The notes beneath the pieces are model-generated. The model was not told where the DNA came from, did not search any database, and was given only the letters and a program-made list of their open reading frames with translations. Shown in pieces: positions 3,451 through 30,881 of a stretch of 36,430 nucleotides of DNA. Source of the DNA: a virus; IMG/VR virus record IMGVR_UViG_3300032046_000103, positions 1-36,430 of that record; one strand, given 5' to 3'. Within the stretch, counting starts at the first letter, position 1. The number at the start of each line of letters is the position of its first letter. A program made the translations under genes and the position numbers.

Positions 3451-4049
3451 CCCTTAAAATCCAATCCGCACCAAAGCGTCCTGATCTCACACGCCTCCGG
3501 GTGGGCCTCCGCGTATTCCTCGATGTCCCATGGGGCCGTGTCGACGGGCTTTAGGTCGGACAATTTCACGCCTTGCGTTAAAAACAATTCCGCGACGTTC
3601 TCCGAACAGAAGTCTTTCTTGCTCGGTTGGAGAAACCGCATTCCGAACCGCAGGTAATCGGTAAAGGCATAATCCGGCAATTCCAAACCAATCCTCGGCA
3701 CGCTGGCATCCAGCACGGCCGCGTCACAGAGCGCGTTGCGCTTGTCGGCGGGGATGTCCTTGAAAACGACAACGTCGATCCGGCGGGCGGAACGGAACTC
3801 ATCTTTGAGCAGTTGCACGGTTCGGAACTTCCCGACGTTCAGGAACAGGCCCCGGCAGATGTAGAACGCCGCATGGAACGCCGGCGGCTTGTAGGGGTGG
3901 TTGTAGAGACGGTTGCCGATCAACTCGGTGAGGTTGTTTCCCCCATAAAACAAAATCGCCGACGCGGGCGGGATGTCGGCAAGTTTGATGAACGGATAGT
4001 TCGGGAGGCGCTTGGTGACGGGCTTCTTAAACAATTTTAAGAGGTTCAT
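3447..4049 (-). CDS. Permuted papain-like cysteine hydrolase (YiiX/YaeF-like) (200 aa)
   Basis: The arrangement fits circularly permuted NlpC/P60 enzymes: an N-terminal segment IPPASAILFYGG, the histidine in the FHAAFYI strand (His59), and only later the nucleophile in DFCSENVAELF (Cys148). In canonical NlpC/P60 proteins Cys comes first. Such proteins act on amide or ester bonds of cell-wall or lipid substrates. GGAGGAGAT precedes the ATG at 4049. It overlaps the canonical NlpC/P60 gene by 23 bases, so the two are made together. A lysis or entry role is inferred from this pairing and the position after the tail genes; the exact substrate is unknown. Confidence 0.65.
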   Translation of the reverse strand: MNLLKLFKKPVTKRLPNYPFIKLADIPPASAILFYGGNNLTELIGNRLYNHPYKPPAFHAAFYICRGLFLNVGKFRTVQLLKDEFRSARRIDVVVFKDIPADKRNALCDAAVLDASVPRIGLELPDYAFTDYLRFGMRFLQPSKKDFCSENVAELFLTQGVKLSDLKPVDTAPWDIEEYAEAHPEACEIRTLWCGLDFKG

Positions 4050-4431
4050 ATCTCCTCCAACCGGCGAACATTTTTTGAGTGGACCACTGTTTCAAGTCCT
4101 GCTGCACGACTCCGAAGTTGGTGCCCTTCGCGTGGACAACGGTTTTGTCGTCGAGGCAGATACCGACGTGGATGATGATCCCGCTGTCCAGATTCCGCAA
4201 AAAGCCCAGGTCGCCGAACTGAGGCTTTCCCACAGGAACACACGCTTTGTATTGGTTCGCCGCGCCGTCCGTGATCTTCACGCCAACATAAAAAAAAGCG
4301 CTTTCAACGAGTTCGCTACAGTCCCACGCTTCGGCATCAATGTCGCCCAATCTGTTCTCGACGCCAAGCCGATATGGCTTGCCGATCTGTTTGAGGAGGA
4401 ACGTCTTGAGTTTTTCAGCGTCTATGGTCAT
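4027..4431 (-). CDS. NlpC/P60-family peptidase, candidate endolysin (134 aa)
   Basis: A single-domain NlpC/P60 protein with family motifs in canonical order: DCSELVESAFF (Cys38 nucleophile), FGDLGFLR, IIIHVGICLDD (His88) and VVHAKG (His100 as likely third residue). Such enzymes cleave the D-Glu to diaminopimelate bond of stem peptides. It has no signal peptide, so release would need a holin or a virion route. It starts in an ATGA overlap with the gene before it (4428-4431). It is the best endolysin candidate in the window; it could instead be a virion-associated hydrolase. Confidence 0.8.
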   Translation of the reverse strand: MTIDAEKLKTFLLKQIGKPYRLGVENRLGDIDAEAWDCSELVESAFFYVGVKITDGAANQYKACVPVGKPQFGDLGFLRNLDSGIIIHVGICLDDKTVVHAKGTNFGVVQQDLKQWSTQKMFAGWRRYEPLKIV

Positions 4432-6265: not shown

Positions 6266-8260
6266 CTAACAAAAAAGTTCGCCGTAAATTCCCGATTGAC
6301 AACGTAGCGGGAATCCAAGGTCACCAATCCACGTTGTTGTCCCTGTTGCAGCAGAATATTCAAGCCAAGCCAAATAGTGTCTCCCGATTCCAACATATCC
6401 CTTCCATGTTGCATGGAGACCTTGCATCGACGACGCCGCAAGAATTGCTACGGCTCCATGTAATTGCCCGCCAGCAAACGCGTTTGTGACATCTAACCCG
6501 ACACCAACCGCAATCTCGACACCCACGGATTGACTTCCAGCCGCCCCAACCACATCAGCGGCGACAATGTCTTCACTGACACCAATTACCATATCTAATT
6601 GATTTGCTGCATTCCCGTTTGCCTGTCGAATAGTTGCCGTCGTGTAATTCCACGTGTCCGTCGGTTCATTGACTTCCATATATTTTTTTACTCGATTGTA
6701 ATAATTCCACAGATAACGCTTCGCCGACGAATCTTCCGTCTGACCCGATGCGGTTGTCGTTCTGAATGAACCAACATATCTCCGAGTGGTCGCGCCCGTT
6801 TTAACTAAAACGCCGTCCTGTGTTGTCAATGCGGTGGCTCGCGTCGTATCGTTCGTCCATGCCAACAGTTCCAACATCAACGTGCCAGCGTTGCTATAGA
6901 CAAAAATGTCATACATCGTCGATGTTGTTGCCGGGACAGCGATAGATATTTCAGCAAGCGCATAAAGATTCCAAATACTGCCGTCAAAAAGAGCAACCCG
7001 ATTCCCACGGAAAGGCGTCAGATATAAAGTTGTTTTTGCCAACTGGTCTGTTGTCGTAACCGGAACGCCACTTGCTAGTGTCGCTCGTGCTTGAAACACT
7101 GGGGTATAAGTGATGTTAGCCGCCGAAGCCGCCGCATCCGCCGCGTATTTCCTCGCAGAGTATTCGACGTTATCGACCGTGGCTCCTAACAGTGTGGCCC
7201 AATCCTTTGCCGATCCGCCACCGGTCGCGCCCCGCGTGAACGTCCCGATGGCCCATTCTTTGGCGGAGCACAAAGCCTCTGTCACATAGGCCCCTACTGC
7301 CTGTGCCCAATTCTTCGCCGAACCGCCCGCTCCCGCCTGTGAACCCTGCGCGTATTCCTTCGCGCTGTAATCGGTAGCCGCAACAATAGCGTCTGTTTTG
7401 ACAGCCCAATCTTGAGCAAGGTTTTTTGCTGTCACGGCATTGGTCTCGGCAGTTTCGGCGTTCGTCTCCGCAGTCTCGGCATTTGTTTCAGCCGTCTCAG
7501 CGCCGGTCTTTGCGGTCTCAGCCAACCCCTGCGCCGTCTCGGCCAAACCTTGGGCCGTTTCAGCCCCGGTCTTCGCGGTTTCAGCCAACCCCTGCGCGGT
7601 TTCCGCGTTCGTCTCCGCCGTCTCCGCATTCGTCTCGGCGGTCTCAGCACCTGTTCTCGCGGTCTCAGCCAAACCCTGCGCCGTCTCGGCAAGCCCTTGG
7701 GCCGTTTCAGCACCGGTCTTTGCGGTCTCAGCCAAACCCTGCGCGGTTTCCGCGTTCGTCTCCGCCGTCTCCGCATTCGTCTCGGCTGTCTCAGCAGCAG
7801 TCTTCGCGGCCAACGCATCTGCTTTATAACCGACAACAGTTTCCAAAAACGCCGTCGAGTCTTGACTTGACGGAGAGGACGACACCGGCCAAAGAACGGA
7901 CCTGTCGGTCTTCTCATTCACCTGCTGAATGGCCATCATCGCCTTGTCGTCCGCCGCTTCGATCACTTCGGCGGGCAAGGGGCCTTGGTTTTTCAAATCG
8001 GTTTCTTGGGTGAGCGGGACTTTTCGGAGGAGTGTGATTTTCCAGCCAGTGGGGAGAGGGTCGCCGGTGGTCGGATAGACCACGCGCAAATTGTTTTCGT
8101 CAACGGTAAAATTGGTTGTTTGCTCGGTTTCAACAAGCGCCGGGCTGGTGAGATAAACCTTGATGTCTGTGTTTGAGATTATCGGGAAGGTGTAAGGCCA
8201 GTTGACGGTTGTGTCGTCGCCGTTGTAGATGTGCTTGTTGCTGGTGCTGGCAATGGTCAC
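6266..8260 (-). CDS. Tail fibre protein, T7 gp17-like N-terminus (664 aa)
   Basis: Residues 1-130 match the T7 tail-fibre attachment domain: an N-terminal TSNKHIYNGDDTTVNWPYTF, then LLRKVPLTQETDL and NEKTDRSVLWPV. Residues 156-281 are AETA-type heptads forming a long trimeric coiled-coil shaft. Residues about 285-380 hold repeated YSAKEYAQG / SAKEWAIG / SAKDWATL units typical of fibre shafts. The C-terminal 270 residues should carry receptor binding. GTG at 8260 is the start, with GGAGG seven bases upstream. It follows the ejection proteins and precedes the lysis genes. The identity of the N-terminal domain is confident; the receptor is unknown. Confidence 0.88.
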   Translation of the reverse strand: MTIASTSNKHIYNGDDTTVNWPYTFPIISNTDIKVYLTSPALVETEQTTNFTVDENNLRVVYPTTGDPLPTGWKITLLRKVPLTQETDLKNQGPLPAEVIEAADDKAMMAIQQVNEKTDRSVLWPVSSSPSSQDSTAFLETVVGYKADALAAKTAAETAETNAETAETNAETAQGLAETAKTGAETAQGLAETAQGLAETARTGAETAETNAETAETNAETAQGLAETAKTGAETAQGLAETAQGLAETAKTGAETAETNAETAETNAETAETNAVTAKNLAQDWAVKTDAIVAATDYSAKEYAQGSQAGAGGSAKNWAQAVGAYVTEALCSAKEWAIGTFTRGATGGGSAKDWATLLGATVDNVEYSARKYAADAAASAANITYTPVFQARATLASGVPVTTTDQLAKTTLYLTPFRGNRVALFDGSIWNLYALAEISIAVPATTSTMYDIFVYSNAGTLMLELLAWTNDTTRATALTTQDGVLVKTGATTRRYVGSFRTTTASGQTEDSSAKRYLWNYYNRVKKYMEVNEPTDTWNYTTATIRQANGNAANQLDMVIGVSEDIVAADVVGAAGSQSVGVEIAVGVGLDVTNAFAGGQLHGAVAILAASSMQGLHATWKGYVGIGRHYLAWLEYSAATGTTTWIGDLGFPLRCQSGIYGELFC
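7439..7795 (-). repeat. Seventeen 21-bp heptad repeats with a 147-bp super-period
   Basis: Residues 156-274 of the tail fibre are 17 consecutive AETAxxx heptads. The variable triplets run ETN, ETN, QGL, KTG, QGL, QGL, R/KTG, and this block of seven occurs twice before a final ETN ETN ETN. So 21-bp units are nested in a 147-bp unit. The repeat opens long spurious reading frames on both strands. Confidence 0.9.
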
Positions 8261-8350: not shown

Positions 8351-11300
8351 TCAGTTTTTTGTGCGCCGCGACAAAATATCTTTCCACGTCAATTCGCCCT
8401 CGTCTTGCAACCAGTCGAGAAAATTAAAGATGATGTGATTGGCGGCCAGCGGGAAACCTGAAAGCATTGACGCGGCATTCACGCCCTCATCAAAAACCTT
8501 TCTCCCATCCTTGGATTCAACTCCGGGGGTGACAAGTTTCACGGCATCCACCCCCGCTTCAATAACAGTTTCCGCCGCGCTCAAAAGAGGGATCCTGATG
8601 TTGGTTCCCGGCTGTTTCTGCGCGTAATCAATGGCCATTCCCCACAGATCGCGCACAAGGGGTATGTAACTAAGAGGTTGGGCCAGTGCCCGGTTCAACA
8701 TCCTTTTCTTCCGCGCTTCAGGATCGTCGTGTTTGGCGTTACGCACCAGTTCCCGATAGAAACATTCCACCAACGACGGCAGCACCCACGAGTAGAATGC
8801 GCCTTTTAACATGAGCATTGAAGCCGGACCGTAGTTCCCTTTGTTCCATTCCAGTTGTGCGCTCTTGCTCTGAAGCCACCAACGGTTGAACATCATGGAG
8901 AGCCACGAGAAATACATGGTGAACATTTTTTTAAATTCGCTACCGCGCATGAAACCGGCTTGGTCGAGAATCGACCCGCCACCCAGAGTCCGCGTGATTA
9001 AATCGTCAGCCAGGTCAATCGCTGTGGCCTCGTCGTTTGTTTTAAGGGCACGGTTGTATGCCTCCATCCAAAGAGGGTAGGCCAATGCTTGGTCGGCCAA
9101 AGACTGAAGAATGAACCCATTGCGCTGGAACACACCAACTTCTTTTCCCAGTTTGCGGCTCATGTCGTTCAGGTCGCGCTCCCGCATGGTCGCCCGGAGA
9201 GTCATTCGTTTTGATTTTGAATCAACAAAATTCTTTGTGCCGGTTGGATTCATGGCGAACTCGGCCACCGCGTGGCGCAAGCGTGTCGGCCCGATTTCCC
9301 CAAGGGCGATGAACGCATTTGTCACCACGTCCATAAGTAGAAACTTGAACCTGTAGGCCAGCGTGGCGAACGTCACCTTATAGCGGAACCACCGGAGTGC
9401 CTTGTCGAACCCGGTTAGGAATTCTCCTTGATCCGATGCCACGGCCTTCAGCGTATTCTCGATACTCCTATACCCTTCAAGCCCCGTGGCGTTCTGCACG
9501 GCCATCTTGAAATCACTGTTCCGCATCAGACGGCTAATGTCGATGACGGCCTCGCGGAATGCCAGGTCATGTATCACGTCCTCAATATGGGCGAACATGA
9601 CGCGCATCTCCGGCAACACTTGACGATCAACCTTCATCACGCGGGATTGCGTGTGTCCGTGATCCGTATGTGCTTTCACCGCACTGAACTGTTTGTAGAG
9701 GGCATTTCGTTGTTCGGCGTTCCTGAAAGCCTCGGCTGACTTTTTCGGGTCAAACGCTATCGGGTAATACCCGCCGCGGTAGTTTCCATACCGGGTGGCC
9801 AGCGCCACAGGAGAAACTTGGTGCGGTTCCATCCCGGCCACCTTCATCTCAAACGCCTTGATCTGCGGCCAATAGGTGTCCAAATAGTCCCAAACATCTT
9901 GGATGTAATCCAAGTCTCGCTTGGTCAGGTGTTCGTCGATGATCCTCATACCCTGATGCTCTTGCAAGCGGTAGCCATCCATTATCCGGGCCTTGTTCCC
10001 GGCGTTTCCCCAGTTCAGGCCAACGACGACGATCTCTTCCATTGTCATGTCCCGGCCAACGGCATCTACATATTTCTTGTCCGACGGAAGTTTGGCGAAC
10101 TCTTCCTCGGTGTAGTGCTTTTTAATTATTTCATTCAGGGCTTTAATTGCCTCAGACTGCATTTTGAGTTTATTGTCTTCCGACCGCTTTAGGATCGAAT
10201 AGACAAACCTGAACATCGGCCCGTTGTCTTTGTCACCGTCCAAGTATCGGCACAGCGTCGAAAGGTTGACGAGGTTTTCAAACGCCGCCTTTCCGGGTGA
10301 CTGCCACATCAATAGCAGTCGCTCCTTCAGTTTGGTCATGCCGGGTTTATGAAACGGAATGAAATCTTCCGCGTAGGGACGGCCCACATTTTGAGTGATG
10401 GATACAGCACATTCCTTTCCTGCCTGTTTTATCCCCACCTTGATGAAGTCAGACGTAAAGCGGTCATGGTTACGGCCCACGGTGTAGATTGCGGTGACAG
10501 CATCCCGCAAGTTCTGCAAATCGCCCATGGAGATGTTTTTGTAGTCAACGGGCTTGTCACCAAACAGCGTGGGCGCGATGGTGATGGTGTAATAATTGTC
10601 GTTCACGCGCTCCTGAAACTCAGCCAGCGTTTCTTGCCGCCATGTCCCGTTCTCCCTGATGAGTCCGGTGGCGTTCACAATATCGTCTTCGCTCTGCCGC
10701 GACTGCATCATCCCTGTGGCGATCTGCAACAACGCCGTCATGTCCTCTGACTTGGTTTCGGCAAGGCCGTGTCTCGCCAATAAAATGTCGATGTGCCGGA
10801 TGAAACCGTAGGGCATATCCATCAAATCGTTCCCGCGCATGGCTAACTTGTGAAAATACCGCAGGTGCCTTTGAATTATGATCTTATTCTTGATGGCCTG
10901 TTGCGCCAAGGCACTGTTCAGCCTTTGTTTCTCTTTCAGGTCGGCGGCTTTCTTCAGTTGCTTGGCATAGTTGGCCTTTAGAGATTCCAACTCTACGGGG
11001 TCTTTTGTCTTGTCCATCCTGTTCTTGATTTCGACAGCCTTGGCGACGGTCCGGCTGAAGTTGACCGCCGCGTTTCGGGACTCTGTCACATAATGGAAAT
11101 AGTCGTCCGCCGCGTACACCGGTCGCTCCGCCATGATTTCGGCAACCTTGCTCCGGATGACATCGATGCTGACGTTGGCCATGTTGTGTATCCGCTGGGC
11201 CGTTGACATCTGCATGTCCTGCGCATCCCCCTTGGCTTTCAGGGCCAGGTCCATGTATAAGGACTGCTCAAGCGCCAACAGTTCTTCAGCGTGTTCGTTA

Positions 11301-14300
11301 AGGACAGCCTCCATAGCCGCCTCTTTGATCGCCAATGTATCTTTCAGGTCGAGCATCTTGGACATCTCGGCCTCAACCAAAGAATCTATCTCGGATTTCA
11401 TATCAGGCGTCTTCAGTATTGTCTGAGACAATGCGGACGCGGAACTAAACCCGTTGAGAGTTGCGACTTGTTCAAGCATACCCACGTCGCCCTTGGTTCT
11501 TCCCCGCAGTATTTTTTCCTCAAATGCCTGAGCCACATAAGCCGCTGAATGATTAAAGTAATTTTCCACGCTTGTTATGGCCCTATAGATTGGGCGGGAC
11601 GAAACCTCTGCCGTTGCCGCCTTTGTGGCATTCCGTCGGGCCTCTCGCACGTTTTCATCATGGCCATCGGTTATTTCGGCCATCTGTTGGCGGACAAGCT
11701 TCTCAACGGCCGCCTCGTGAGCCTTCTCTCGGAGCGCGTCCAGTTCCTTGGCGAGGTCGGGATCCATCCCGTCCGCGTGTTCGTCAACCAAAACACCGGC
11801 TCCGGTCGCCTGTTGGGCGGCGTCAATCTCCGCCTCTGTGGCCAACATACGTGTCATTACTTCACGCACAGGATCGGATAGTTCCACGTTCAAGGCGGCC
11901 GCGCTCTTGTAAATCCGTGTCAACCATCCTCGGTAACGTTTAAACCACTTCTTCATCTCAAATGTGGGGACGTAGTCAACCCTGCTCCCCACAAATCTTT
12001 GGGCCTCTTTCTTCGTCTTAAATTCACGGACAACCTCATCACGGCCAACGACATACACACCCCATCCGTCGCCTTTCTCCCGAACGATGTAATCCTCCCC
12101 GCGCAAATACAATTCAAACCCCCGCGCGAACTTCTCTTGTTGCTCGACCGACACTTTTTCTTGCTCACCCTTGATCCCAAGCCAAGCCGCCAGCGCGTTG
12201 TAGTCCCTCATGTATCCGGCGCTGGCCTGTCCGGATTTGACGTGGTTGAATTTCTCTCTAAGAAAGTAGTGCGCCATCTCGTGGATGAACGAAGAGGCGT
12301 CCGGCTTCAGAAATACAAGACGGGCTTCTTTGTCTCTGAACTCTAAAAACGCACGGTCCTTTTTGGAAAGCGATTTTTGGGATTCTGCTGTATCATCTTG
12401 AAACAATGTCTCTTGTCCTTTTTCACCAGTGCCAAACCCCTGAACGCCGTCGGCGGCGAACTGGCCCTGAGTGCCAGTCGCTTGATCTGATTGCGTTTGC
12501 TTCTGTCCGATCTGCCGCATACGTTCAAAAGTCAGTTTTTTGGCTGTTACCTTGTCGATTCCCTGCCGTATCAATTCGCCTAAAATCCTCTGATATAATT
12601 GGATCGGGTCCTGTTTCGTGTTATCGGAAAACAGGTCGCCGGATGTCTGGGGAAGCGTGTTGTTTTCCGCCTTGACAATTTCAGCTTTTGGGGCTATATT
12701 ATTAGTGGCTAAGGCCCCCCGCCCAGAAGAGGGGGCCGTTGTATTTCTCCCCTCTCCCCATATATCGAAAACGCTCAGAAACCTTTTACCGCCTTGGTTT
12801 TTCTCTTCAACAACAACCCGCAAAACTGTCCCGTCGCTCATTTTCCCAACAAGTCCGAACCTTTTAACTCCGTCCGATTCTTCCCTCATTTCGTCAACAT
12901 ATTTCGTGGTTTCAAGTATTGTTTTCGCATTCTTGAACTGTTTTAGTCTGCGGAGTTGATTCGATTCTGTCCTGTTCTTTTCCCCTGCATATCTAATTGC
13001 ATCTTCTGTAATGTGAACGATCTGTCCACTGAATGCGGGGCTTGGCTTTTCGTTGCCGCTCCATTCGGCCACAAACTTCTTTGTGTTCACCAAAACAGAC
13101 TGATAATCGTTCCCTTCCATCGGATTGTTTTCTATTTGGTCGTATCCCTGAAGAAGAAGTCTGACACGCTTGTTTTTCCCGATGTCTTCTTTTGGAGTTG
13201 CCAAAACGGCACCGTCTTCCGTAGTTTTTACGTCAAATATTTCCTGCATGTTTGCACTCTGAAACAACGGCTCGTTCGCCATGTTCGGTTGTGTTTGGAT
13301 GGCATCTGCCGCCGTGAGTTCAGCCGGCAATCCCTCCCGCGCTTTTTTAACATCATCAAAAAACGCATTGGCTACCAGTTCGGCCTTGGCTTGGGCTGCA
13401 TACGATTCGACAGAACCGACACGCGATGTTCTCCTCTTCGTTTTCTCATCGTGCCCAAAATAGTTTTTAATCTGTGCCAAAATTTCGGATTCCGTGACGT
13501 TAAATTCTTGGGCGTATTCGTCCAGGCTTTTCCCGCCTTCTCTGTCTGTAATTATTTTTTTAACGTTATACCACTTCAATTCGAGGTCTTTGAGTTCGGC
13601 GTAATAGGCGTCCCCTTTGCTCAGTTTTATCTTGCTGGAAAGTATCTCCTTCATCAGTTCTGGGGTTTCGTTAACAACGGCGGCCCTCTCGGCTTCGGCT
13701 TGTTGTTTTAATGTTGCGGCGTGGCCCATTATTTCCTTATCCGTTATCCCGTGACTTTTTTGTATAGCGGCAATGCGCTGTGGCGTTAAGTGTTGGACGA
13801 CGGACGCCGCGTCTTCGTGGTCGATAGGCAACCCTGATTTAGTCCACAACACGGGGGATTCGGTTGTTATCATGCTTTCGGGGATCCCCAGTTTCGCCGC
13901 AACGTCCTTGTGAACCTGCATCCCTGAATCGGGGAACGCGAGGTTTCTTCGTCTGTAAAGATGTCCATTCTCAATAGACACAGGCAACCTGTTCCACAAA
14001 TCCTGAACCTTGATGTTCTGCTGGGCCGCCTCAACGGCAAACATCTTGGCCACCATGCGAGACTGAACCTTGGCTTGGCCGTCGGGTGTTCCAGAGTTCA
14101 GAAGTCCTTGATATAGGTTCTGCTCGATGTCCGCTGTTTGTTTTTTGTTGTCTGGATTGGTCTTTTGGTTTTCCCTGATTAGTTCTTCAATTTGAGCGAT
14201 GGCCGCTTTCTCAGAGGACAGGCGCTCGTTCTCTGTTATCCCGTTCTTCTCAAACGTGAAATCTTTGGACAGCCCGGCGAAATGCGGTGTTTGTTGAACC

Positions 14301-15817
14301 TTGGCCAACCATGTCGAATAAGGGATGGCGACCATCTCGTCTTTGGCGAACGCTTCGGTGTATTCTTTCTCAAGGCCGAGTTCCGCCATGGCTTCCACAG
14401 GGTCTTGGTTCTGCGATTGAAAATAAGTTTCTATGGCCTGTGTGGGGAAATAAACGGTCCCCGCCGGTGTTCCCTTCGTCACCTCTTCGGCCAGACCTTG
14501 CATCTGCTCCGGAGATCGGCCGGCCAACTTCGATTTGGCGTATGCTTCACCGGTCTTCTGATACAGTTCCCCGGCCTTGCGGGACTCCGCCATTTCGTTC
14601 ATATATCCCTTGACGTGCATTCCACCACCCAACAACCCAAACGCCAACGTGGCATAAAACGTCTGTTCCGCCGTTTGCATCTGCTCCGCACCCGACGGCA
14701 ACATATTCAAGAGAACAGTGTGTCTGTTATCGGCCAGCGCCTGAAGATACTCTTTGCCTATGGCCGGAGCTACGTTCTGCGCCAACTCCGTTGACACTTC
14801 CGCGAGTTCCGACATCATCACGATTTTCCCGGCCTCTTGGATCGCCCGGCGGACGCTGAATTTGGCAAATACCTCTGGACTGGCAATGACCTTTCCAAGA
14901 ACCTTTTGAATAAACGGTGACGACGATCTGGCGGCGACAGACCCGGCAAGTTTAAGTGCGGCTTTTCCGGCAAGCCCCGCCACGATCAAATCGCCTGATG
15001 CCTCCAACAGTCCGTTAACGGCACCGATCCGGTCGGCATATTTCCGGGCCGTTGCCCAATCGACACCCTTTATCTTCATGTATTCACGGTAAGCCAGTTC
15101 GCCCTCAAGCTGCGCCGCGCCCTCAAATGCGCCGTACGCCACACCCAAGCCATATCCGGCGCTGGCCGTTGCCGGGTTCCCGAACATAGCCCCTGCGGCA
15201 AGGCCAACGGCGCCGCGCTTTTGTCCTTGTAGCAACACCTTACCCATGATGGGCAGTTGGTTGGCTCCGTATGCGACAACTTTATGGACAAAACCCCCGG
15301 GAACTTCGTCGGGAATTGCTCCCATCTCCTTCTCTGCGGCTAAAATCTCATTTTCAAACGCCTTGCTCTGACGACCACCCATCCACTTGGACCTTTCGTT
15401 TTGCTGGGCGCTCAAATCCGCAATCTTGTTCATCAGCATTCCTTTACGAAACTGCTGGGACACGTCTCTGAACAGGGATTCAAAATATCCAAGGTTCTCA
15501 ATATCGTCCTTGGCCACGGCCATGTTCTCGTTGTTTTTCAGGAAGGCGCTGGTCTTCGGGTATCGCGCTTCGATGTCCTTAAAGATTTGGCTCGGAGGGA
15601 TGGATGCCGCCAATTTGGCGGAGTCAAGATTGTCCGCAATCAGCGACGGTGGTTGGTTTAATTTCTTAGACAGGGAAAAAACCTGCGCGGCCGTGTCTGG
15701 CTCAAAATCAAGTGTCCTTCGATAGGAATCCTCAAGCTGACTTGGCTGGTCAGGCAATGTTTTGGGGTCTATCTTTAGCCCTTCAAAAGGATTGAGTTGT
15801 TGCGTGTTGTTTTCCAA
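8351..15817 (-). CDS. Giant polyvalent / DNA-ejection protein with zinc-metalloprotease motif (2488 aa)
   Basis: This gene takes up a fifth of the window. It follows gp14- and gp15-like core genes, the place of T7 gp16, so it is probably packaged and ejected with the DNA. The N-terminus (SAFLKNNENMAVAKDDIENL region) is typical of podoviral large internal proteins. A Gly/Ala-rich hydrophobic stretch lies at about 200-235. Residues about 865-1010 look like a small nuclease-like or accessory domain of polyvalent proteins. A metalloprotease motif FIHEMAHYF has ligands His1179 and His1183, and a likely third ligand in the downstream EQQEKFARGFELYLRGE. Long helical regions follow, and the last 400 residues (MDVVTNAFIALGEIGPTRL; MFTMYFSWLSMMFNRWW) look like the C-terminal LPD-type module. 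Start is TTG 15817, with GGGA six bases upstream; no ATG is available. Confidence 0.82.
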   Translation of the reverse strand: MENNTQQLNPFEGLKIDPKTLPDQPSQLEDSYRRTLDFEPDTAAQVFSLSKKLNQPPSLIADNLDSAKLAASIPPSQIFKDIEARYPKTSAFLKNNENMAVAKDDIENLGYFESLFRDVSQQFRKGMLMNKIADLSAQQNERSKWMGGRQSKAFENEILAAEKEMGAIPDEVPGGFVHKVVAYGANQLPIMGKVLLQGQKRGAVGLAAGAMFGNPATASAGYGLGVAYGAFEGAAQLEGELAYREYMKIKGVDWATARKYADRIGAVNGLLEASGDLIVAGLAGKAALKLAGSVAARSSSPFIQKVLGKVIASPEVFAKFSVRRAIQEAGKIVMMSELAEVSTELAQNVAPAIGKEYLQALADNRHTVLLNMLPSGAEQMQTAEQTFYATLAFGLLGGGMHVKGYMNEMAESRKAGELYQKTGEAYAKSKLAGRSPEQMQGLAEEVTKGTPAGTVYFPTQAIETYFQSQNQDPVEAMAELGLEKEYTEAFAKDEMVAIPYSTWLAKVQQTPHFAGLSKDFTFEKNGITENERLSSEKAAIAQIEELIRENQKTNPDNKKQTADIEQNLYQGLLNSGTPDGQAKVQSRMVAKMFAVEAAQQNIKVQDLWNRLPVSIENGHLYRRRNLAFPDSGMQVHKDVAAKLGIPESMITTESPVLWTKSGLPIDHEDAASVVQHLTPQRIAAIQKSHGITDKEIMGHAATLKQQAEAERAAVVNETPELMKEILSSKIKLSKGDAYYAELKDLELKWYNVKKIITDREGGKSLDEYAQEFNVTESEILAQIKNYFGHDEKTKRRTSRVGSVESYAAQAKAELVANAFFDDVKKAREGLPAELTAADAIQTQPNMANEPLFQSANMQEIFDVKTTEDGAVLATPKEDIGKNKRVRLLLQGYDQIENNPMEGNDYQSVLVNTKKFVAEWSGNEKPSPAFSGQIVHITEDAIRYAGEKNRTESNQLRRLKQFKNAKTILETTKYVDEMREESDGVKRFGLVGKMSDGTVLRVVVEEKNQGGKRFLSVFDIWGEGRNTTAPSSGRGALATNNIAPKAEIVKAENNTLPQTSGDLFSDNTKQDPIQLYQRILGELIRQGIDKVTAKKLTFERMRQIGQKQTQSDQATGTQGQFAADGVQGFGTGEKGQETLFQDDTAESQKSLSKKDRAFLEFRDKEARLVFLKPDASSFIHEMAHYFLREKFNHVKSGQASAGYMRDYNALAAWLGIKGEQEKVSVEQQEKFARGFELYLRGEDYIVREKGDGWGVYVVGRDEVVREFKTKKEAQRFVGSRVDYVPTFEMKKWFKRYRGWLTRIYKSAAALNVELSDPVREVMTRMLATEAEIDAAQQATGAGVLVDEHADGMDPDLAKELDALREKAHEAAVEKLVRQQMAEITDGHDENVREARRNATKAATAEVSSRPIYRAITSVENYFNHSAAYVAQAFEEKILRGRTKGDVGMLEQVATLNGFSSASALSQTILKTPDMKSEIDSLVEAEMSKMLDLKDTLAIKEAAMEAVLNEHAEELLALEQSLYMDLALKAKGDAQDMQMSTAQRIHNMANVSIDVIRSKVAEIMAERPVYAADDYFHYVTESRNAAVNFSRTVAKAVEIKNRMDKTKDPVELESLKANYAKQLKKAADLKEKQRLNSALAQQAIKNKIIIQRHLRYFHKLAMRGNDLMDMPYGFIRHIDILLARHGLAETKSEDMTALLQIATGMMQSRQSEDDIVNATGLIRENGTWRQETLAEFQERVNDNYYTITIAPTLFGDKPVDYKNISMGDLQNLRDAVTAIYTVGRNHDRFTSDFIKVGIKQAGKECAVSITQNVGRPYAEDFIPFHKPGMTKLKERLLLMWQSPGKAAFENLVNLSTLCRYLDGDKDNGPMFRFVYSILKRSEDNKLKMQSEAIKALNEIIKKHYTEEEFAKLPSDKKYVDAVGRDMTMEEIVVVGLNWGNAGNKARIMDGYRLQEHQGMRIIDEHLTKRDLDYIQDVWDYLDTYWPQIKAFEMKVAGMEPHQVSPVALATRYGNYRGGYYPIAFDPKKSAEAFRNAEQRNALYKQFSAVKAHTDHGHTQSRVMKVDRQVLPEMRVMFAHIEDVIHDLAFREAVIDISRLMRNSDFKMAVQNATGLEGYRSIENTLKAVASDQGEFLTGFDKALRWFRYKVTFATLAYRFKFLLMDVVTNAFIALGEIGPTRLRHAVAEFAMNPTGTKNFVDSKSKRMTLRATMRERDLNDMSRKLGKEVGVFQRNGFILQSLADQALAYPLWMEAYNRALKTNDEATAIDLADDLITRTLGGGSILDQAGFMRGSEFKKMFTMYFSWLSMMFNRWWLQSKSAQLEWNKGNYGPASMLMLKGAFYSWVLPSLVECFYRELVRNAKHDDPEARKKRMLNRALAQPLSYIPLVRDLWGMAIDYAQKQPGTNIRIPLLSAAETVIEAGVDAVKLVTPGVESKDGRKVFDEGVNAASMLSGFPLAANHIIFNFLDWLQDEGELTWKDILSRRTKN

Positions 15818-15828
15818 TTTATTCCCAA

Positions 15829-17487
15829 TTATTGCTGAGGAGAGTTACCACGACCGTTGCCGACTTGCTTGAGGGCCGCGTTACGTTGTTCTTCAATCAC
15901 CTTGCCAATGTTTTTCGGCGTGGGGTCCATTTTAAGAACACTGACAACATAGTCGGTCGCCTGAGAAACGATCTCGTCGCCATAATTCATTTTCAACTGG
16001 CCCATCGCGGCGGCAACCGCGTTCCGGCTTGCGGCATCGCGTGTCCATACCGGGGACATCTTGTCAAAGAAAACCCACTTCTTCCCAACGGGTATGGTTT
16101 TAATCTTCTCTTGAGCGATGGCCCACATTTCGTCCGGCGATTTTCCGATAAGACTTTGCTTCATTTCGCTGACAAACAAGTCTTTCATGTTGACCTTGTT
16201 TGGGAACCCCTCAACTGCGATATCGCTTTCATTGCCGTAGGTAGAAGGTGCGAGTATTTTTTCAATCCTATCCATTACCGCCTTCTGTTCCGGCGATGCT
16301 TTCTCCCATTGCCTTTCAACAAAAGCAGTTTTGTCTCCCGTGTAAAGGTCGTAAAGTTCTTTCTCTTTTTCCACCTGATTTTTGGAATCCCACGAATAGG
16401 CCGGGACAAGTTTCTGCGCTTCCGCGTATGGCATCCCCTGTTTGTGTGCGTCAAGGATGGTGTTCGTGAACGTCCGGTCCAGATTGTTCCTGCGGTCCCG
16501 CGTGTTCGCGTCTTCCACACCCGCCATGCGTAAGGAATAATTGACCAACGCCTCCTTGCGGTCCGTGGGAATGTTCGGCAGCGCCATGATAGCGGCACGT
16601 TGTTTCTCATTGTCGTAGAAACCGTCCGCCATCCTGAACTCCGGACCGCTGACGCGGGTCCACGCGCCCAACTGTTCATCGGACAGGGCCTTTCCGTCTA
16701 CCTGCGCTTGCAGTTTCGCGGCCAAGGGTTCAGGGATGGCCTTTCTGAAAGTGTTCAATATCTTCCGCGCGGAGTTGTAGTCTTTCTCCAAATGGGCCGT
16801 TACGGCTGATTTGACCATTCTTCCCGCTTGAATCTGAGTGGCCAATGCTATTGATTTATCGTCGGCTCCGAAATGCTTCTTGGCCACCGCCAGCGTTTGT
16901 TGTGCCGTGGCGATTTCCTGCGCCAATATTTTCGGGTCGGAAATGAGCGCGGCGTCAGAAACGCTTTGCTCCAAATTTGACTGCGCCACATTCGTAAAAT
17001 CCTGTTCTCTCTGCTTCGCCTCATTCTGAATGACACTGTCGCGGGCGGCCAAATAGTGGCTGTCCATCCGGCCCATCAATGCGGTCTTCTGTCCGTTCGA
17101 TGAAACATTTTTAAGATACTTTTCCCGCAAAGGTTCGTAGGCTTTGTCGAACTCAACCGTCGAGTCTTTCGCCTGGCCGAGTTGCCGGACAAGGAACCCT
17201 TTCGGGCGGTCTTTCTCGTCCGGGGTCTGGTCCGTCAAAATTCCCTGCATTTCCCTTCGGAACGCAACGTCATTGAGAAGGACCTGCTTATCGTCCTCCC
17301 TCTGTTGAAGTTCGATACCACGCCTGACAACCATATCCCCTATTTTATTGACGGTATCCATGAATCCAGACTTAGCATTGGCCACATTGGCACCAAACGC
17401 CTCCACCGGCGGGCGCGGGGATCCGCTGGTTGAGACCGGGGCCGTTTTTGTCTGGACCTGATTATCGAGTGTCGGTACGCGTGGCAT
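15829..17487 (-). CDS. Internal virion protein, gp15-like (552 aa)
   Basis: Mostly alpha-helical, without signal or membrane segments; Gln/Lys/Ala-rich helices run throughout (VAKKHFGADDKSIALATQIQ). Its size and place between the gp14-like gene and the giant protein match T7 gp15, which with gp14 and gp16 forms the ejection conduit across the envelope. AAGGGAG precedes the ATG at 17487. Sequence similarity to T7 gp15 is not obvious by eye, so the call rests on composition and gene order. Confidence 0.65.
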   Translation of the reverse strand: MPRVPTLDNQVQTKTAPVSTSGSPRPPVEAFGANVANAKSGFMDTVNKIGDMVVRRGIELQQREDDKQVLLNDVAFRREMQGILTDQTPDEKDRPKGFLVRQLGQAKDSTVEFDKAYEPLREKYLKNVSSNGQKTALMGRMDSHYLAARDSVIQNEAKQREQDFTNVAQSNLEQSVSDAALISDPKILAQEIATAQQTLAVAKKHFGADDKSIALATQIQAGRMVKSAVTAHLEKDYNSARKILNTFRKAIPEPLAAKLQAQVDGKALSDEQLGAWTRVSGPEFRMADGFYDNEKQRAAIMALPNIPTDRKEALVNYSLRMAGVEDANTRDRRNNLDRTFTNTILDAHKQGMPYAEAQKLVPAYSWDSKNQVEKEKELYDLYTGDKTAFVERQWEKASPEQKAVMDRIEKILAPSTYGNESDIAVEGFPNKVNMKDLFVSEMKQSLIGKSPDEMWAIAQEKIKTIPVGKKWVFFDKMSPVWTRDAASRNAVAAAMGQLKMNYGDEIVSQATDYVVSVLKMDPTPKNIGKVIEEQRNAALKQVGNGRGNSPQQ

Positions 17488-17498
17488 GATTTTCTCCC

Positions 17499-18062
17499 TT
17501 ACCGATTAAGATACATGGCCCAGTTATTCGCCACGGTGGCGCCGGTCCCCAGAAGTGTCGAACGGGCCTCCCATCGGGATGCCTGATACGCATTTGCTCC
17601 ACCCATCCGGTTTAAGATGGCGTTGGTTTTCAACTTCTTCGCTTCGTCGGAGGCGGATTTCCGCGTGGCCCAAGACTGCGAATCGGCGTTAAACCGTATC
17701 GCCATCGCGTCTATCTTCGCCATGTCAAACGTGTCCCTCGTGATGTCTTCCGCCGTGACGGAATCCAGCGGTACCCCGTTCGCGGCCAACGTGGCTTTCT
17801 GCGTTCCCTCTACCCGTTTGACGCCTTGCGCCAGCGCGTGTTGTTGGCGTGACGCATCGGCCTGAATGCCGGAGACGTTCGTTTCGGCGTCGGTCAAAAC
17901 TTGGGCGGCGTCCGATTCGTTCTGTTTGGCGAGATATTCGTAATATTTTTTAGACGCCTTCCCTGCCTCTTTCTGATACTTCGCCGACTGCAACCCGCCG
18001 TAGGCTTGCATTCCGGTCCCTACGATCATCATGCCGACAGGTATTGCCGCTGGGCTACACAT
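17499..18062 (-). CDS. Internal virion protein, gp14-like (187 aa)
   Basis: The N-terminus has a hydrophobic Gly-rich segment (AIPVGMMIVGTGMQAYGGLQ) followed by long Ala/Gln helices and the motif GVPLDSVTAEDITRDTFDMA, as in gp14-type core proteins that insert in the outer membrane during ejection. The ATG at 18062 is chosen because AGAGGTG lies about six bases upstream; a GTG three codons earlier is too close to it. The start overlaps the end of the gp13-like gene. Confidence 0.78.
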   Translation of the reverse strand: MCSPAAIPVGMMIVGTGMQAYGGLQSAKYQKEAGKASKKYYEYLAKQNESDAAQVLTDAETNVSGIQADASRQQHALAQGVKRVEGTQKATLAANGVPLDSVTAEDITRDTFDMAKIDAMAIRFNADSQSWATRKSASDEAKKLKTNAILNRMGGANAYQASRWEARSTLLGTGATVANNWAMYLNR

Positions 18063-18576
18063 GGGGATCACCTCTCTTTATGGAAAACCGCCGGAACTCC
18101 CTCCGCTCGATTCCGTATGCTTGCGGTTCATCCAGTTCCGCGCCACACCATTTCAACCAGTCGATGGACTCCGTATTCCATGCGCCGACGTGGTTGTAAA
18201 GAAACTCGTATTTTTCCAAAAGGTTCTGGACACATTGGCGGCTGAGACGGAGAAACGCTTGCCAGTTCTTGCGGATGTCGTCCGTCCCCAACAGCCACGC
18301 CACGGCGGCGCTATCGCATTCCACCGGGACCGCCCCGAACATGGCGATGGGCGACCCGTTGACCTCGACGGTGAAACAAGGCGCTGAATTTCTGAACCCA
18401 ACCATGAGCGCTTGTTTGGCGCTTTGGTGGTGGCTGGCCCATATTTCCTCACGGTCCGCGTCACGCAAGCGGTTTTCCAAAATGAATATGTCACGGATGC
18501 GCGAGGGCACCACGGTCATGTTTCCTTGCTGGAATAGGGTTGTTCCCATCGGCAGGGCTTCGGCCACGGCGTTCAT
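18055..18576 (-). CDS. Gp13-like protein with GNAT-like fold (173 aa)
   Basis: The pattern resembles the T7 gp13 family found between nozzle and gp14-like genes: RDIFILENRLRDADREEIW, CFTVEVNGSPIAMFGAVPV, then a C-terminal LYNHVGAWNTESIDWLKWCG. The middle strands recall an acetyltransferase (GNAT) core, but the usual acetyl-CoA loop is not clear, so enzymatic activity is doubtful. In T7 this family is needed for virion morphogenesis. The ATG at 18576 overlaps the nozzle stop as ATGA, with GGAGG only just upstream, so translation is probably by coupling. Confidence 0.7.
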   Translation of the reverse strand: MNAVAEALPMGTTLFQQGNMTVVPSRIRDIFILENRLRDADREEIWASHHQSAKQALMVGFRNSAPCFTVEVNGSPIAMFGAVPVECDSAAVAWLLGTDDIRKNWQAFLRLSRQCVQNLLEKYEFLYNHVGAWNTESIDWLKWCGAELDEPQAYGIERREFRRFSIKRGDPHV

Positions 18577-21221
18577 CCTCCGATCTCGATTCGCGGGATG
18601 ACGGCCAAAATCGTCACCGGCAGGGGGTCTATCTGACGATAGAACACGCTGGCTCCGTTTTCAAAAGTCGGCGTGATGCTTTCCTTGTCATCGCCTGTGA
18701 AAAGTTCAATGGGCGACCCCAGTGATTCGGTCGTCCTCTGGTTTATTTCCGTCAAATTGTCCGCGTCCGGACCGACCCATCCGCCGCGCGAATTCAGGAA
18801 CCGGATCGTCAATTCGGCGACGCGGGCCTTCCGTCCTTGGAGCGTTCCGTCCCGCATCTGGATTTCCGGTTTGAGCGTTTCAAAATCGGCCGTGTAAGCC
18901 AGGCCGACGTGTACGATCGACGCGGCGGCGTCCAACGTGATAGCGCCGGCGGAAACGGTCTTTTCGGCCTGAACGCTTCCGTTCGCCAAGACGGCAACGG
19001 TGAACCCGTTGAGATGGGCCAATCCCGTCACCGTGTCGATAACCTTCCGGACCCCGCCGCCCGAAACGTAGGCCGTAAAATCCGAACCGTCCACATACTC
19101 GCCTGATTCCGCGTCCTTCAACTTAAAGGTGTGCGTCGTCTTATCAGAAACGATAAAGCGCCGTCCGTTCAACTGGCTTTCTCCGTCGGCGTCTTCCATT
19201 CCCACAACGTCAATGATGTCCACATGGTTGCCGTCCGTGAATCCGTGGCTTGTGGCGGTAACGACAACGGGATCCGCTTTGGTGGCCCCCGTGATGGTTT
19301 TCGGCGCGTCGAGGGAAAGTCCGGCGTCAACAAAGAACTGTTTGCGCGGGTCCGTGGAGACAAGGCGCTGTTCCATTCGCTCAACAAACCGGGACGAACC
19401 GCGCTTCACGGCCAGCCACAATTCGTCGTAACCGTCTCCGGGGATGCAACAGATGGATTCAACCGTGCCGTTCGTCTCGTGGCGGGTCCACGCGATAACC
19501 TCGTGTTCGCGCAAATAGGTCATAGACAAAAGAATTCCATCGTCTCGGATGGCCCATACCAGGCTGTCCGGCTCCTGCTGGTAGGCCAATTCGTCGATCT
19601 TGTGTCCGGTGAACAGATGGTTTGAGAGGATGCTGAGATTGTTCCCGACAAACCCGCTGACGTTGAAGTCATACCCGATGTCCACCACCACGGACCCTTG
19701 GGGAAGAACATAGATAGCCCTGTTTCCGACAACAACAGGTTCTGTCTTGGAACTGCCGCGGTATCCGTATTGTTTCGTCCGAACAGTCGTAGGAGCAAGA
19801 ACATCAGAAGCGCCGGCGCCCACGCCCCATTCGGCCCCGGAAGTCAAAGACAGGATTTCGGACAGCGGCACAAGGTTTCGGATTCCGTTCATTTTCCGGC
19901 TCGCCAAGTTGACGGTGATCCCGTCGGAATCCACCAGCGGGTCGCTCCGGTCATAACTCGTATAGTTCCCGGTCTCCGTCATCCATTCGGTTTGCGGTTC
20001 CGACACGGTATTCGCAAATGTCAGTCTGTCCTCGTAAAAGGTCACACACGACGGGTATCCCCGGTAATCCGACCACGACCCCTCGGCCCAGTCTGCCGTG
20101 GCGCTCGTTGCCCCAAGCGTTGTCTGGACAGTCCCCGTCACCACTGTCCCGCTGGTATAGGCCGTGATTTTCACAATCCCGGTTTGCTCGAACGGATCAC
20201 ACGACAAATCAATGACACCGGACGCGGAGCTCGTAAACGCGGAACAGTAAGCCCGGATCAGGCACGGTTCCGTAACTTCGCCGTAGGTGTTGGCGTTGAA
20301 ATCCCCAGTCGCCCCGCCGGACGAGAAGGCCCTCACTTCAATCCATGTCGAACCGGCATCCAGTGACTTTTCAACACGAAGATTGGCGACCCATGCCCCA
20401 TGCGTGATGATCCGCCATGTAGACCCGCATTTAAGGGACGCCGTTGCGCCGACGGCGGTTATGGGGGTTGTGTTTGAACTTCCAGGCACCGAATGGCGCA
20501 CACGCCACAGGGACCCGATGTGCAGGACGTTAAAGATGGACGCGCTGGCCGTCAGTGTAACGCCGCTCCCCGTGGTTGCGCTCGGCGTGATCGTCGTCGC
20601 GGCCACATTGGAAGGCATGAAGGGGCCGCCCGTGTAATCATAGGCGACCAAATCCCAATCGTCGTGCGCGGTCCGAACCAACGTCTTTGGCGCATGTTCC
20701 GGGTGGCAGATGTAAAGCACGTCCGCCGACTGCGCGAATTTAAGGTCCGGCAGGTCGGCCTCCGTGTAGGGGGTGGCGATTTCATAGATTGTTTGGGCTG
20801 TCCAATAAGCGGTTTCCGTGTTCGGTGTTTTGTTCGTTCCGTTCTGGATGCACCGATACACGACGGAGGAATAGGTGACGTAATCGCTGACCACGTAGGC
20901 CGTCCCTGAATTATAGGCGGCCGGGCTGGACGCGGCGATCTGTCCGCCGTCCTTATAGAATCGGCAGTAAAGGTTCCCGAACTCAATGACGTAGGCTTGT
21001 TCCGTGGAGAACTCAAAGGAGACGATGCGGACCTTTTTCGTTGAATCTTTAACGGTGGCGATATACTTGGTACCCGGGCGGTTGCTGGCCCCGCCGTGCG
21101 GATGGATGAAGAAGTTCTTGGCCGTTTTCAGGCCCGTCGCGTATTTTTGGAGGTCAACGCGGGAATGAAGGGAAGGGGCGAACTCACCGCCGGCGAATGT
21201 GGGTTGGATGGACGACGGCAC
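18573..21221 (-). CDS. Tail nozzle protein, gp12 (tubular B)-like (882 aa)
   Basis: The N-terminal signature (FAGGEFAPSLHSRVDLQKYA, then NFFIHPHGGASNRPGTKYIA) is that of podoviral nozzle proteins, which form the tail tip below the adaptor. Two insertions stand out. Residues about 102-143 look like a small carbohydrate-binding module (YNSGTAYVVSDYVTYSSVVY, with conserved Tyr and W140). Residues about 655-710 look like the phage FCCH-type repeat (SHGFTDGNHVDIIDVVGM; TTHTFKLKD). Start is GTG 21221, overlapping the adaptor stop by one base, with GAGGG about five bases upstream. The insertions may bind cell-surface glycans. Confidence 0.85.
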   Translation of the reverse strand: MPSSIQPTFAGGEFAPSLHSRVDLQKYATGLKTAKNFFIHPHGGASNRPGTKYIATVKDSTKKVRIVSFEFSTEQAYVIEFGNLYCRFYKDGGQIAASSPAAYNSGTAYVVSDYVTYSSVVYRCIQNGTNKTPNTETAYWTAQTIYEIATPYTEADLPDLKFAQSADVLYICHPEHAPKTLVRTAHDDWDLVAYDYTGGPFMPSNVAATTITPSATTGSGVTLTASASIFNVLHIGSLWRVRHSVPGSSNTTPITAVGATASLKCGSTWRIITHGAWVANLRVEKSLDAGSTWIEVRAFSSGGATGDFNANTYGEVTEPCLIRAYCSAFTSSASGVIDLSCDPFEQTGIVKITAYTSGTVVTGTVQTTLGATSATADWAEGSWSDYRGYPSCVTFYEDRLTFANTVSEPQTEWMTETGNYTSYDRSDPLVDSDGITVNLASRKMNGIRNLVPLSEILSLTSGAEWGVGAGASDVLAPTTVRTKQYGYRGSSKTEPVVVGNRAIYVLPQGSVVVDIGYDFNVSGFVGNNLSILSNHLFTGHKIDELAYQQEPDSLVWAIRDDGILLSMTYLREHEVIAWTRHETNGTVESICCIPGDGYDELWLAVKRGSSRFVERMEQRLVSTDPRKQFFVDAGLSLDAPKTITGATKADPVVVTATSHGFTDGNHVDIIDVVGMEDADGESQLNGRRFIVSDKTTHTFKLKDAESGEYVDGSDFTAYVSGGGVRKVIDTVTGLAHLNGFTVAVLANGSVQAEKTVSAGAITLDAAASIVHVGLAYTADFETLKPEIQMRDGTLQGRKARVAELTIRFLNSRGGWVGPDADNLTEINQRTTESLGSPIELFTGDDKESITPTFENGASVFYRQIDPLPVTILAVIPRIEIGG

Positions 21222-22577: not shown

Positions 22578-23570
22578 TTAGGCGAAACTGACCGCGTCTT
22601 CCGTGCTGAGAATCTGGTCCACGCGACGCACCGGGACACCGCCGAACATCATGACGGGTTTCCCTCCGACCTGTTCCATCGTCAGTTGAACGTTGCTCTT
22701 GTTCATGATCTGACGACGCAGGAACGATTTGATGGTCCGGTTGCAATAGAACACCGGCTTGCCGCCCATCAGCGAAGGCGGAAGTTCCAGCGCTTGGGTC
22801 ATCAGGTCGATGAGGTCCGCGCCGGTGGCAGCCGCTTTCGTCAATGTGGCAACGTCGATGTTGCAGATGCGAACCTGGTGACGCCAGTCGCGCACCGTCA
22901 AGCCGCAGTCCCATTGGAAATGGGAACGGAGGACCTGAAACAGTCCGCCATCGGCGTCGGTTTTCGTCTGTTCGCCCAAGTCCTGCTGGTCGATGCCGGC
23001 CTTGCTACCTTTCGGGTAGATGCCGTAGGCCATGTTCGGACCCCAGTTGACCAACCACACAGACGTGTTGGTCGATCCGGAACCCGCGCCGTTCAACATG
23101 TTGGCGAAGGTCGCCGCCGTCTTGACGTTGAACCGAGGCGTGAGCCCCATGATCTTTTCCGGGTCTTCCGAACTGTCGCCGTAGAACAGCGCGGCCGCCA
23201 ACTGTTGGTTCATGGCTTCCAAATGCGCCATGGCTTCGGACAACAAAAAGTCCGATTTGTTTCCGTTCAGTTCGGCCAGCTTTTTGTCCACTTCGGAGTA
23301 GGCTTCCAGCATCCCGCACGAATCGGTGATCTGTTTCGTCAGGGATTTCGTCGGCACGACGCCGTAATTCAGTTTCCGCCATGTCGCGGTGGGCAAGCCT
23401 GTCCGCACGGTGGTTTTCTCACCGGTCGTCAAATTGCCTTCCTTCCACAACATGTCTTCCAGAATCTCGTTGGACTCCGCGAGGAGTTCGACGATCTTCG
23501 CCACTTTGTCATTGGGATCAAGCCGTTTGGCGAGGTCCAACAATGTTAAGCACGTTCCGATTGCACCCAT
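22578..23570 (-). CDS. Major capsid protein, BPP-1 (Bbp17)-like (330 aa)
   Basis: An HK97-fold capsid protein by context and pattern: KIVELLAESNEILEDMLWKE near the N-terminus, the GLPTATWRKLNYGV segment, and FYGDSSEDPEKIMGLTPRFN in the middle, all typical of this podoviral capsid family. Length is normal. AAGGAG precedes the ATG at 23570. It lies between scaffold and cement genes. A 287-residue frame opposite this gene is a shadow. Confidence 0.9.
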   Translation of the reverse strand: MGAIGTCLTLLDLAKRLDPNDKVAKIVELLAESNEILEDMLWKEGNLTTGEKTTVRTGLPTATWRKLNYGVVPTKSLTKQITDSCGMLEAYSEVDKKLAELNGNKSDFLLSEAMAHLEAMNQQLAAALFYGDSSEDPEKIMGLTPRFNVKTAATFANMLNGAGSGSTNTSVWLVNWGPNMAYGIYPKGSKAGIDQQDLGEQTKTDADGGLFQVLRSHFQWDCGLTVRDWRHQVRICNIDVATLTKAAATGADLIDLMTQALELPPSLMGGKPVFYCNRTIKSFLRRQIMNKSNVQLTMEQVGGKPVMMFGGVPVRRVDQILSTEDAVSFA

Positions 23571-28358: not shown

Positions 28359-28988
28359 TTATTTTCCTTTTCCGGCGCGGCGGGCGGCAGCGCGTTCTCT
28401 GGCCTTCTTCAACCGCTCCGCCAGGCTGCTCTTGTCGTGGAGTTCGAACTTATCCGTGAACAGCTTCCGCCAGCGGCCCAACATTTCCAGCGCCTTAGTT
28501 TTGTCCCACAACTTCACCTTCTTGGTTTCGCCGATCTGTTCGCGGTCCTGCCCCTGCCCGTCAAACAGGGCGTCGATCTCCACAGACGAAACAGCCCGCC
28601 GCAGTTCTATCGGCCAGTCCTTCACGTTTTTTAGGTTGTTGTCATCATCAAACAATCCGCCAATATCCGTGAACGCCAGACGGCCGATCTCTTGGATGAT
28701 CTGAGATACCGTGATCTCCGCGTGCTTCTCGGCTTTGTGCATGTGGGATTCGATGAACTTGCGGACCTTCGGATTCTTCATCAATTTGCTGGCCTGAACC
28801 GCCGCCGCCTTGGGGGAGAACCCGGCCTTGATGGCCGCTTGCTTGCCGTTCGGGTCTTTGATATATTCGATGCAGAATTTGAAAACCTTCCGGGTGAACC
28901 CAAGCGCCAATATCTGCTCGATGTCGCCGAAAAGCAATTTGTCCAGATTGGGGAGTTTTGGGGCTGAATCTGTGTCTTTGGGTGTCAT
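28359..28988 (-). CDS. Terminase small subunit (209 aa)
   Basis: Terminase_2-type protein: FCIEYIKDPNGKQAAIKAGF and SPKAAAVQASKLMKNPKVRK form the N-terminal DNA-binding helices, followed by ITVSQIIQEIGRLAFTDIG, LWDKTKALEMLGRW and a basic C-terminal tail. It recognises packaging sites and feeds DNA to TerL, whose gene follows at once. The ATG overlaps the integrase stop as ATGA (28985-28988) with GGAGGGTCGC ahead of it, so it is translationally coupled to the integrase gene. Confidence 0.88.
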   Translation of the reverse strand: MTPKDTDSAPKLPNLDKLLFGDIEQILALGFTRKVFKFCIEYIKDPNGKQAAIKAGFSPKAAAVQASKLMKNPKVRKFIESHMHKAEKHAEITVSQIIQEIGRLAFTDIGGLFDDDNNLKNVKDWPIELRRAVSSVEIDALFDGQGQDREQIGETKKVKLWDKTKALEMLGRWRKLFTDKFELHDKSSLAERLKKARERAAARRAGKGK

Positions 28989-30727: not shown

Positions 30728-30881
30728 GTCGTTCATCCTTGCGCTTTTCGTCGAATACCTGCAAAATCCATTGGCTATACATCCGAAGTGCCCTTGCCTT
30801 TGACGCGGGCGCTTGGATGACATCCCCCGTGGAAACGGTTGGGTTAAATCTTACCTCTTTTTTGCTACCTAACTCAATCAT
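30690..30881 (-). CDS. Small protein between methyltransferase and integrase (63 aa)
   Basis: The ATG at 30881 overlaps the methyltransferase stop as ATGA, and the frame runs 63 codons, ending 38 bases inside the integrase gene. It fills a gap that would otherwise be empty. The sequence is mixed and basic at the C-terminal half (SKARALRMYSQWILQVFDEK; RKDERHGKS). No family is recognised. A small basic protein next to a serine integrase could be a recombination directionality factor, purely by position. Confidence 0.5.
   Translation of the reverse strand: MIELGSKKEVRFNPTVSTGDVIQAPASKARALRMYSQWILQVFDEKRKDERHGKSLGILPQVY

Follow-up and report, generated by a model that had tools for sequence, protein, structure and literature searches.

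The window, which is the whole stretch of DNA analysed here, is a virus record of 36,430 bases. It contains a giant open reading frame next to a series of virion genes on the minus strand:

8351-15817, minus strand: giant ejection-type protein, whole open reading frame (2488 aa, TTG start; phrog_9880, E 1.9e-181)
15829-17487, minus strand: gp15-position protein (552 aa; assigned by position only)
17499-18071, minus strand: gp14-like internal virion protein (Pfam T7_gp14, 6.1e-7; phrog_418, 1.6e-22; homologues in relatives)
18055-18576, minus strand: gp13-like protein, called internal virion protein A in relatives (comparison with relatives)
18573-21221, minus strand: tail tube or nozzle protein (phrog_376, 9.8e-226)
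22578-23570, minus strand: major capsid protein of the GP7 family (Pfam PF20911, 2.1e-138)

The 2488-residue frame had already been described at these coordinates in an earlier, sequence-only reading of the DNA, which left the strand unstated; it runs from 15817 to 8351. In the window as well as in its relatives the genes follow the order tail tube, gp13-like, gp14-like, gp15-position and giant protein, as parts of a late operon, usually with a tail fibre or spike gene next. The gp14-like, GP7-type capsid and tail tube genes are syntenic with those of the relatives. This shared order supports the earlier placement of an ejection-type giant protein in the position of T7 gp16, and the two matches to T7_gp14 and phrog_418 back the gp14-like neighbour. 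For the proposed gp15-like neighbour the position holds, but homology at the level of families or BLAST was not found. The equivalents in relatives have 700-758 residues (720 in BPP-1) and are mostly annotated as structural lysozyme, whereas the protein in the window is shorter with 552 residues. In several relatives it is this gp15-position gene that carries the muralytic annotation. The giant protein probably serves a short-tailed phage similar to BPP-1 as its third ejection protein and is probably injected together with the DNA. Judging from the gene order and from the T7 and N4 models, it would be packaged in the head and leave it before the DNA.

Elsewhere in the window, the tail fibre encoded at 6266-8260 contains numerous AETAKTGAETAQGL-type repeats, and an NlpC/P60 protein, the likely endolysin, is encoded at 4027-4431. 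A large serine recombinase (28985-30823) adjoins the terminase genes and suggests a temperate phage. A C5 cytosine methylase (30878-32308), a radical-SAM-like gene (32289-33131) and an N6/N4 DNA methylase (34347-35726) are located close together, possibly as a DNA-modification cluster.

The family to which the giant protein belongs is listed in PHROGs with unknown function, and the phrog_9880 match covers the N- and C-terminal modules described below. With the giant protein as query, tblastn matched 41 phage records, including Bbp10 of BPP-1, Caulobacter phage Jess A, Cobetia phage Carin1, Xanthomonas phage CP2, the Pseudomonas phages AF, HU1 and PfDIW6, and phages of Vibrio, Nostoc and Microcystis. 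Bacterial genome assemblies with loci of the phrog_9880 family come from many phyla. Phages YA3 and Ab31 are absent among the relatives listed for the giant protein; for YA3, virion mass spectrometry is available. In the literature found on family members, neither cleavage nor zinc binding nor presence in virions is reported.

The sequence-only reading had pointed to a metalloprotease motif, FIHEMAHYF with His1179 and His1183, and to a downstream glutamate as third zinc ligand. The motif is exactly as described and is the sole HExxH in the whole protein, and the glutamate corresponds to E1235, which is identical in all 70 aligned relatives. The relevant features are:

11798-12352, minus strand: zincin-like domain, residues about 1156-1340 (alignments; AlphaFold2)
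12269-12283, minus strand: catalytic motif HEMAH (HExxH), H1179-H1183 (invariant, 70/70)
12113-12115, minus strand: E1235, predicted third zinc ligand, in FARGFELY (invariant, 70/70)
11972-12091, minus strand: 40-aa insert, residues 1243-1282 (gap in 69/70; DSSP beta-beta-beta-alpha; Pfam DUF2188, E 0.035)

No row of the alignment of 70 sequences deviates at H1179, E1180, H1183, A1231, E1235, P1284, F1292 or Y1303, and HExxH occurred in 15/15 family proteins in the context STFLHExGH. The first 80 loci from IMG/VR were found through sequence patterns located after the motif, none of them on HExxH itself, and all 80 contain it. A second set of contigs was found by the far C-terminal module alone in order to avoid bias; here HExxH is present in 69/69 loci with enough upstream sequence. 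A strict regular expression for the third ligand matches 47 of these 69, and some of the misses, e.g. L188 and L190, do show a glutamate at this place by eye. In one locus (L104) the motif reads HELGH and is located further downstream. The conservation of the zinc-site residues is far beyond chance.

Structure prediction around the zinc site had been suggested as a check of the motif, and the predicted local arrangement is the right one. In an AlphaFold2 model of residues 1069-1464, HExxH falls within one helix and E1235 within another; local pLDDT exceeds 90 at both places. The first of these helices (108-126 in model numbering) holds H111 and H115, the second spans 156-171 and contains E1235, and two strands lie just before. 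A second model covering residues 1153-2350 has a mean pLDDT of 84.9 and is almost all helix after the zincin. Neither model matched a solved structure at E <= 0.001, including any solved zincin, in a Foldseek search of the PDB; hence, the site is assigned to the zincins on the basis of the motif, the placement of the helices and the conservation. A weak profile match was obtained to the Spartan protein SprT (E 1.7). An intact zincin-type metallopeptidase site is supported, for which zinc binding and proteolysis are predicted. The DUF2188-like insert sits between the helix of the third ligand and the next zincin helix and is unique to the protein in the window. Matches of the model in BFVD are phage proteins of the large-polyvalent type and small proteins, the latter probably matching the 40-aa insert.

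Outside the zincin the protein divides into two modules common to the relatives and a region of its own:

13967-15817, minus strand: N-module, residues 1-617 (BLAST to relatives L187-L191 ends at about 617; N-module HMM)
15446-15721, minus strand: LPD22 domain, residues 33-124 (Pfam PF18834, E 9.5e-15, above cut-off)
12398-13966, minus strand: orphan cargo slot, residues 618-1140, about 520 aa (no homologue found)
13259-13267, minus strand: LFQ junction motif, residues 851-853 (motif scan)
12794-12976, minus strand: BrnT-toxin-like stretch, residues 948-1008, a lead only (Pfam PF04365, E 0.13, sub-threshold)
12398-12406, minus strand: LFQ junction motif, residues 1138-1140, 41 aa before HExxH (predicted disordered linker)
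8354-11797, minus strand: C-module, residues 1341-2488 (almost all helical, constant length)

LPD22 is the single Pfam domain above cut-off in the giant protein. A C-terminal module typical of polyvalent proteins had been postulated; the module exists and is conserved in phrog_9880, but it carries no Pfam name, and the sole LPD domain is N-terminal. HExxH and the C-terminus are separated by 1246 +/- 55 aa in 67 complete IMG/VR proteins (1245 +/- 88 in the set found by the C-module), whereas the length before HExxH ranges from 628 to 2522 aa with a standard deviation of 429. Thus, the family consists of a constant chassis, formed by an N-module of about 600 aa with LPD22, the zincin and a helical C-module of about 1,200 aa, and of a middle part that is exchanged. 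Among 56 relatives, this slot contains ART-PolyVal in 17, PBECR5 in six and GGDEF in four cases; GNAT, ddrB-ParB, MuF_C, PBECR3, Zeta toxin and other domains were also found. Five relatives (L028, L120, L123, L142 and L165) combine a complete N-module with hardly any cargo; their HExxH is at residue 622-677, and the site is intact. Since the motif is kept in proteins with almost no cargo, the zincin belongs to the chassis.

A cargo segment of Pseudomonas phage AF (L005, 5292-11933, residues 657-837) is about 40% identical to a segment of internal virion proteins of F116-type Pseudomonas phages, which match the AF protein in this segment and nowhere else. A cargo segment common to AF and F116-type phages fits a swappable slot. 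In one phage the F116-type counterpart is annotated as putative internal virion polymerase. The AF segment also contains a second HExxH.

Similarity of the protein in the window to its nearest relatives, with up to 41% identity, covers residues 6-617 and resumes at residue 1168 to continue up to the C-terminus; the stretch in between has no match. No homologue of its slot was detected by tblastn in phages, in scans of IMG/VR and GTDB genomes or by BLAST against the fetched relatives, and Pfam gave no match there, while the slots of relatives carry ART, PBECR, GGDEF and other domains. One might consider an RNase toxin of the BECR fold, since the slot occupies the same position as PBECR1, PBECR3, PBECR5 and MuF_C in relatives and residues 948-1008 match BrnT weakly (E 0.13). 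No profile or BLAST match of the slot is significant, and this assignment is rather unlikely.

Both LFQ motifs of the window belong to a short tag, L[FYN]Q, that was seen in loci L016-L178. It is about 4-fold enriched in slots and 1.1-fold in other open reading frames of the same contigs, and near or below expectation in the C-module; all counts of the tag given here were made on the same sequences in which the motif was first noticed. Most zincin-proximal occurrences (58/63) fall 25-45 aa before HExxH. Of the shortest proteins 8% carry the tag, of those with the largest cargo 59% (p = 5e-5). The tag may be a processing site, a scar of domain joining or a conserved domain edge. That it is a leftover of domain shuffling, i.e. 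a conserved tail of cargo domains or the edge of the zincin, rather than a cleavage site, has in our estimate an even chance. ART cargo is often preceded by a similar Q-[S/P/T] tag at its start, and some upstream segments have recognisable tails in common, as such leftovers would. Against this, the motif occurs in 22 of 62 sequence-independent upstream clusters compared with 0-3 for motifs with single substituted residues or permuted order, it is found in front of domains that are not related to one another, its frequency follows the size of the cargo, and the LFQ at 1138 of the window lies within a predicted disordered linker. From these patterns L[FYN]Q is a candidate processing site.

The closest known system is Bbp10 of BPP-1 with its phrog_9880 relatives. 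N-module with LPD22, zincin and C-module are all shared, as are the order of the genes and the type of capsid. Its HExxH and third-ligand glutamate align with those of the window protein, and the matched part is about 26% identical. The slot differs, with PBECR1 in BPP-1 and the orphan stretch in the window; the 40-aa insert is absent from BPP-1. The kind of protein is already known from the polyvalent zincins described by Iyer et al. 2017 (PMC5512222), which are likewise large multidomain proteins in a virion-gene setting with LPD and HExxH zincin domains, and whose relatives carry ART, PBECR and ParB domains as do those of the window. BPP-1 and Bordetella are not mentioned in that text, nor is LFQ (PMC5512222). 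The measured anatomy is new: beyond Iyer et al. 2017 go the measurement of a constant chassis with a variable slot, the L[FYN]Q tag and the retention of the zincin in proteins with hardly any cargo.

T7 gp16 is comparable as a giant internal protein placed after gp14 and gp15, but sequence homology is lacking (HMM scores near zero), and its N-terminal transglycosylase domain is absent from the window protein according to Pfam and NCBIfam. Likewise, no family match to a single-subunit RNA polymerase domain was obtained with Pfam, PHROGs and NCBIfam, in agreement with the earlier remark that no motif of either enzyme was noticed in the giant protein. The layout nevertheless resembles that of the N4 virion RNA polymerase (gp50), which is also a third ejection protein with an N-terminal part, a middle part (enzymatic in N4), an HExxH domain and a large, helical C-terminal domain that is almost as long as the one here. 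The two proteins gave no homology in HMM comparison (hhalign probability 0.1-0.2%), and N4 did not appear among the fold matches of the model, although the fold library may not include N4 entries.

For the zincin itself we propose that it is a processing protease built into a chassis protein of three parts and directed at the phage's own ejection proteins; we assign this reading a probability of about 0.5. The zincin would cut ejection proteins in cis or in trans, after assembly or delivery. Cleavage might take place where the junctions are flexible, perhaps within or close to the L[FYN]Q tags. Membrane part, cargo and C-module would thereby separate or become active in the cell. A precedent for processing is DdrB of P1, which has a C-terminal zincin-like domain and is cut before packaging (PMC5512222). 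The main argument against an obligatory self-cleavage comes from the N4 polymerase, which is undegraded when purified (PMC12633501). Release of cargo cannot be the sole task, since the zincin is kept in proteins with almost no cargo. In general, zincins favour a hydrophobic residue after the cut, which a site of the type L-F-Q-S/G would not supply.

The N4 comparison also bears on a role of the HExxH domain that is structural or regulatory, in which a zinc-stabilised fold serves packaging or inhibition of the cargo with little or no proteolysis. In the N4-type polymerases of nine Schitoviridae, N4 and eight others (L098, L179-L186), HExxH is located 1,229-1,307 aa from the C-terminus, compared with 1,246 +/- 55 aa in the family studied here. 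A preprint on N4 describes an HExxH subdomain and, after it, a large helical domain with an inhibitory effect on the polymerase (PMC12633501). The polymerase is packaged unprocessed (PMC5512222), and its C-terminal region is needed for packaging and remains uncut (PMC12633501, PMC5512222). This parallel is weakened by the missing sequence and profile homology to N4. Moreover, the catalytic E1180 is as invariant as the ligands, although it would be superfluous in a zinc site with a structural role alone. We regard such a role as doubtful.

According to the sequence-only reading, an injected protease disarms host defences. More generally, the zincin would be an effector that cuts host proteins, e.g. 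defence proteins, early in infection. Zincins act in this way in polymorphic toxin systems, the option is kept for polyvalent zincins by Iyer et al. (PMC5512222), and the adjoining slot carries effector-like domains. A domain targeted at the defence of one host, however, should come and go with the host, as the slot domains do. Across phages whose hosts differ greatly, no part of the protein varies less than the zincin. In no case is it exchanged or missing, even where there is hardly any cargo, and it keeps a fixed distance from the C-terminus; the cargo domains of the same proteins that look host-directed (ART, BECR RNase, GGDEF and others) behave oppositely and are found in the variable slot. 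This argues for a chassis function and makes the effector unlikely, so that disarming of host defence is not the leading reading. We judge self-processing or maturation of the ejectosome the likelier role.

It is quite improbable that the podophages with this very widespread protein family inject a modular polyprotein from which a constitutive zincin frees exchangeable cargo, either toxins or host-modifying domains, by cuts at L[FYN]Q after delivery, in the manner of RNA-virus proteases and with a cargo type in the window that is unprecedented.

The observation of a giant ejection-type protein with an intact HExxH site holds and is stronger than the sequence-only reading had it. The interpretation should change from a defence-disarming protease to a conserved chassis protease with swappable cargo. 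Consequently, the question shifts from which host defence is cut to the task of a conserved protease inside the ejection machine, and this question is testable in culturable relatives. The variable slot is the place to seek injected effectors, with L[FYN]Q as a concrete and falsifiable candidate for their release. The match in layout with N4, for which a cryo-EM structure was recently described, may mean that giant ejection proteins which look unrelated share one plan.
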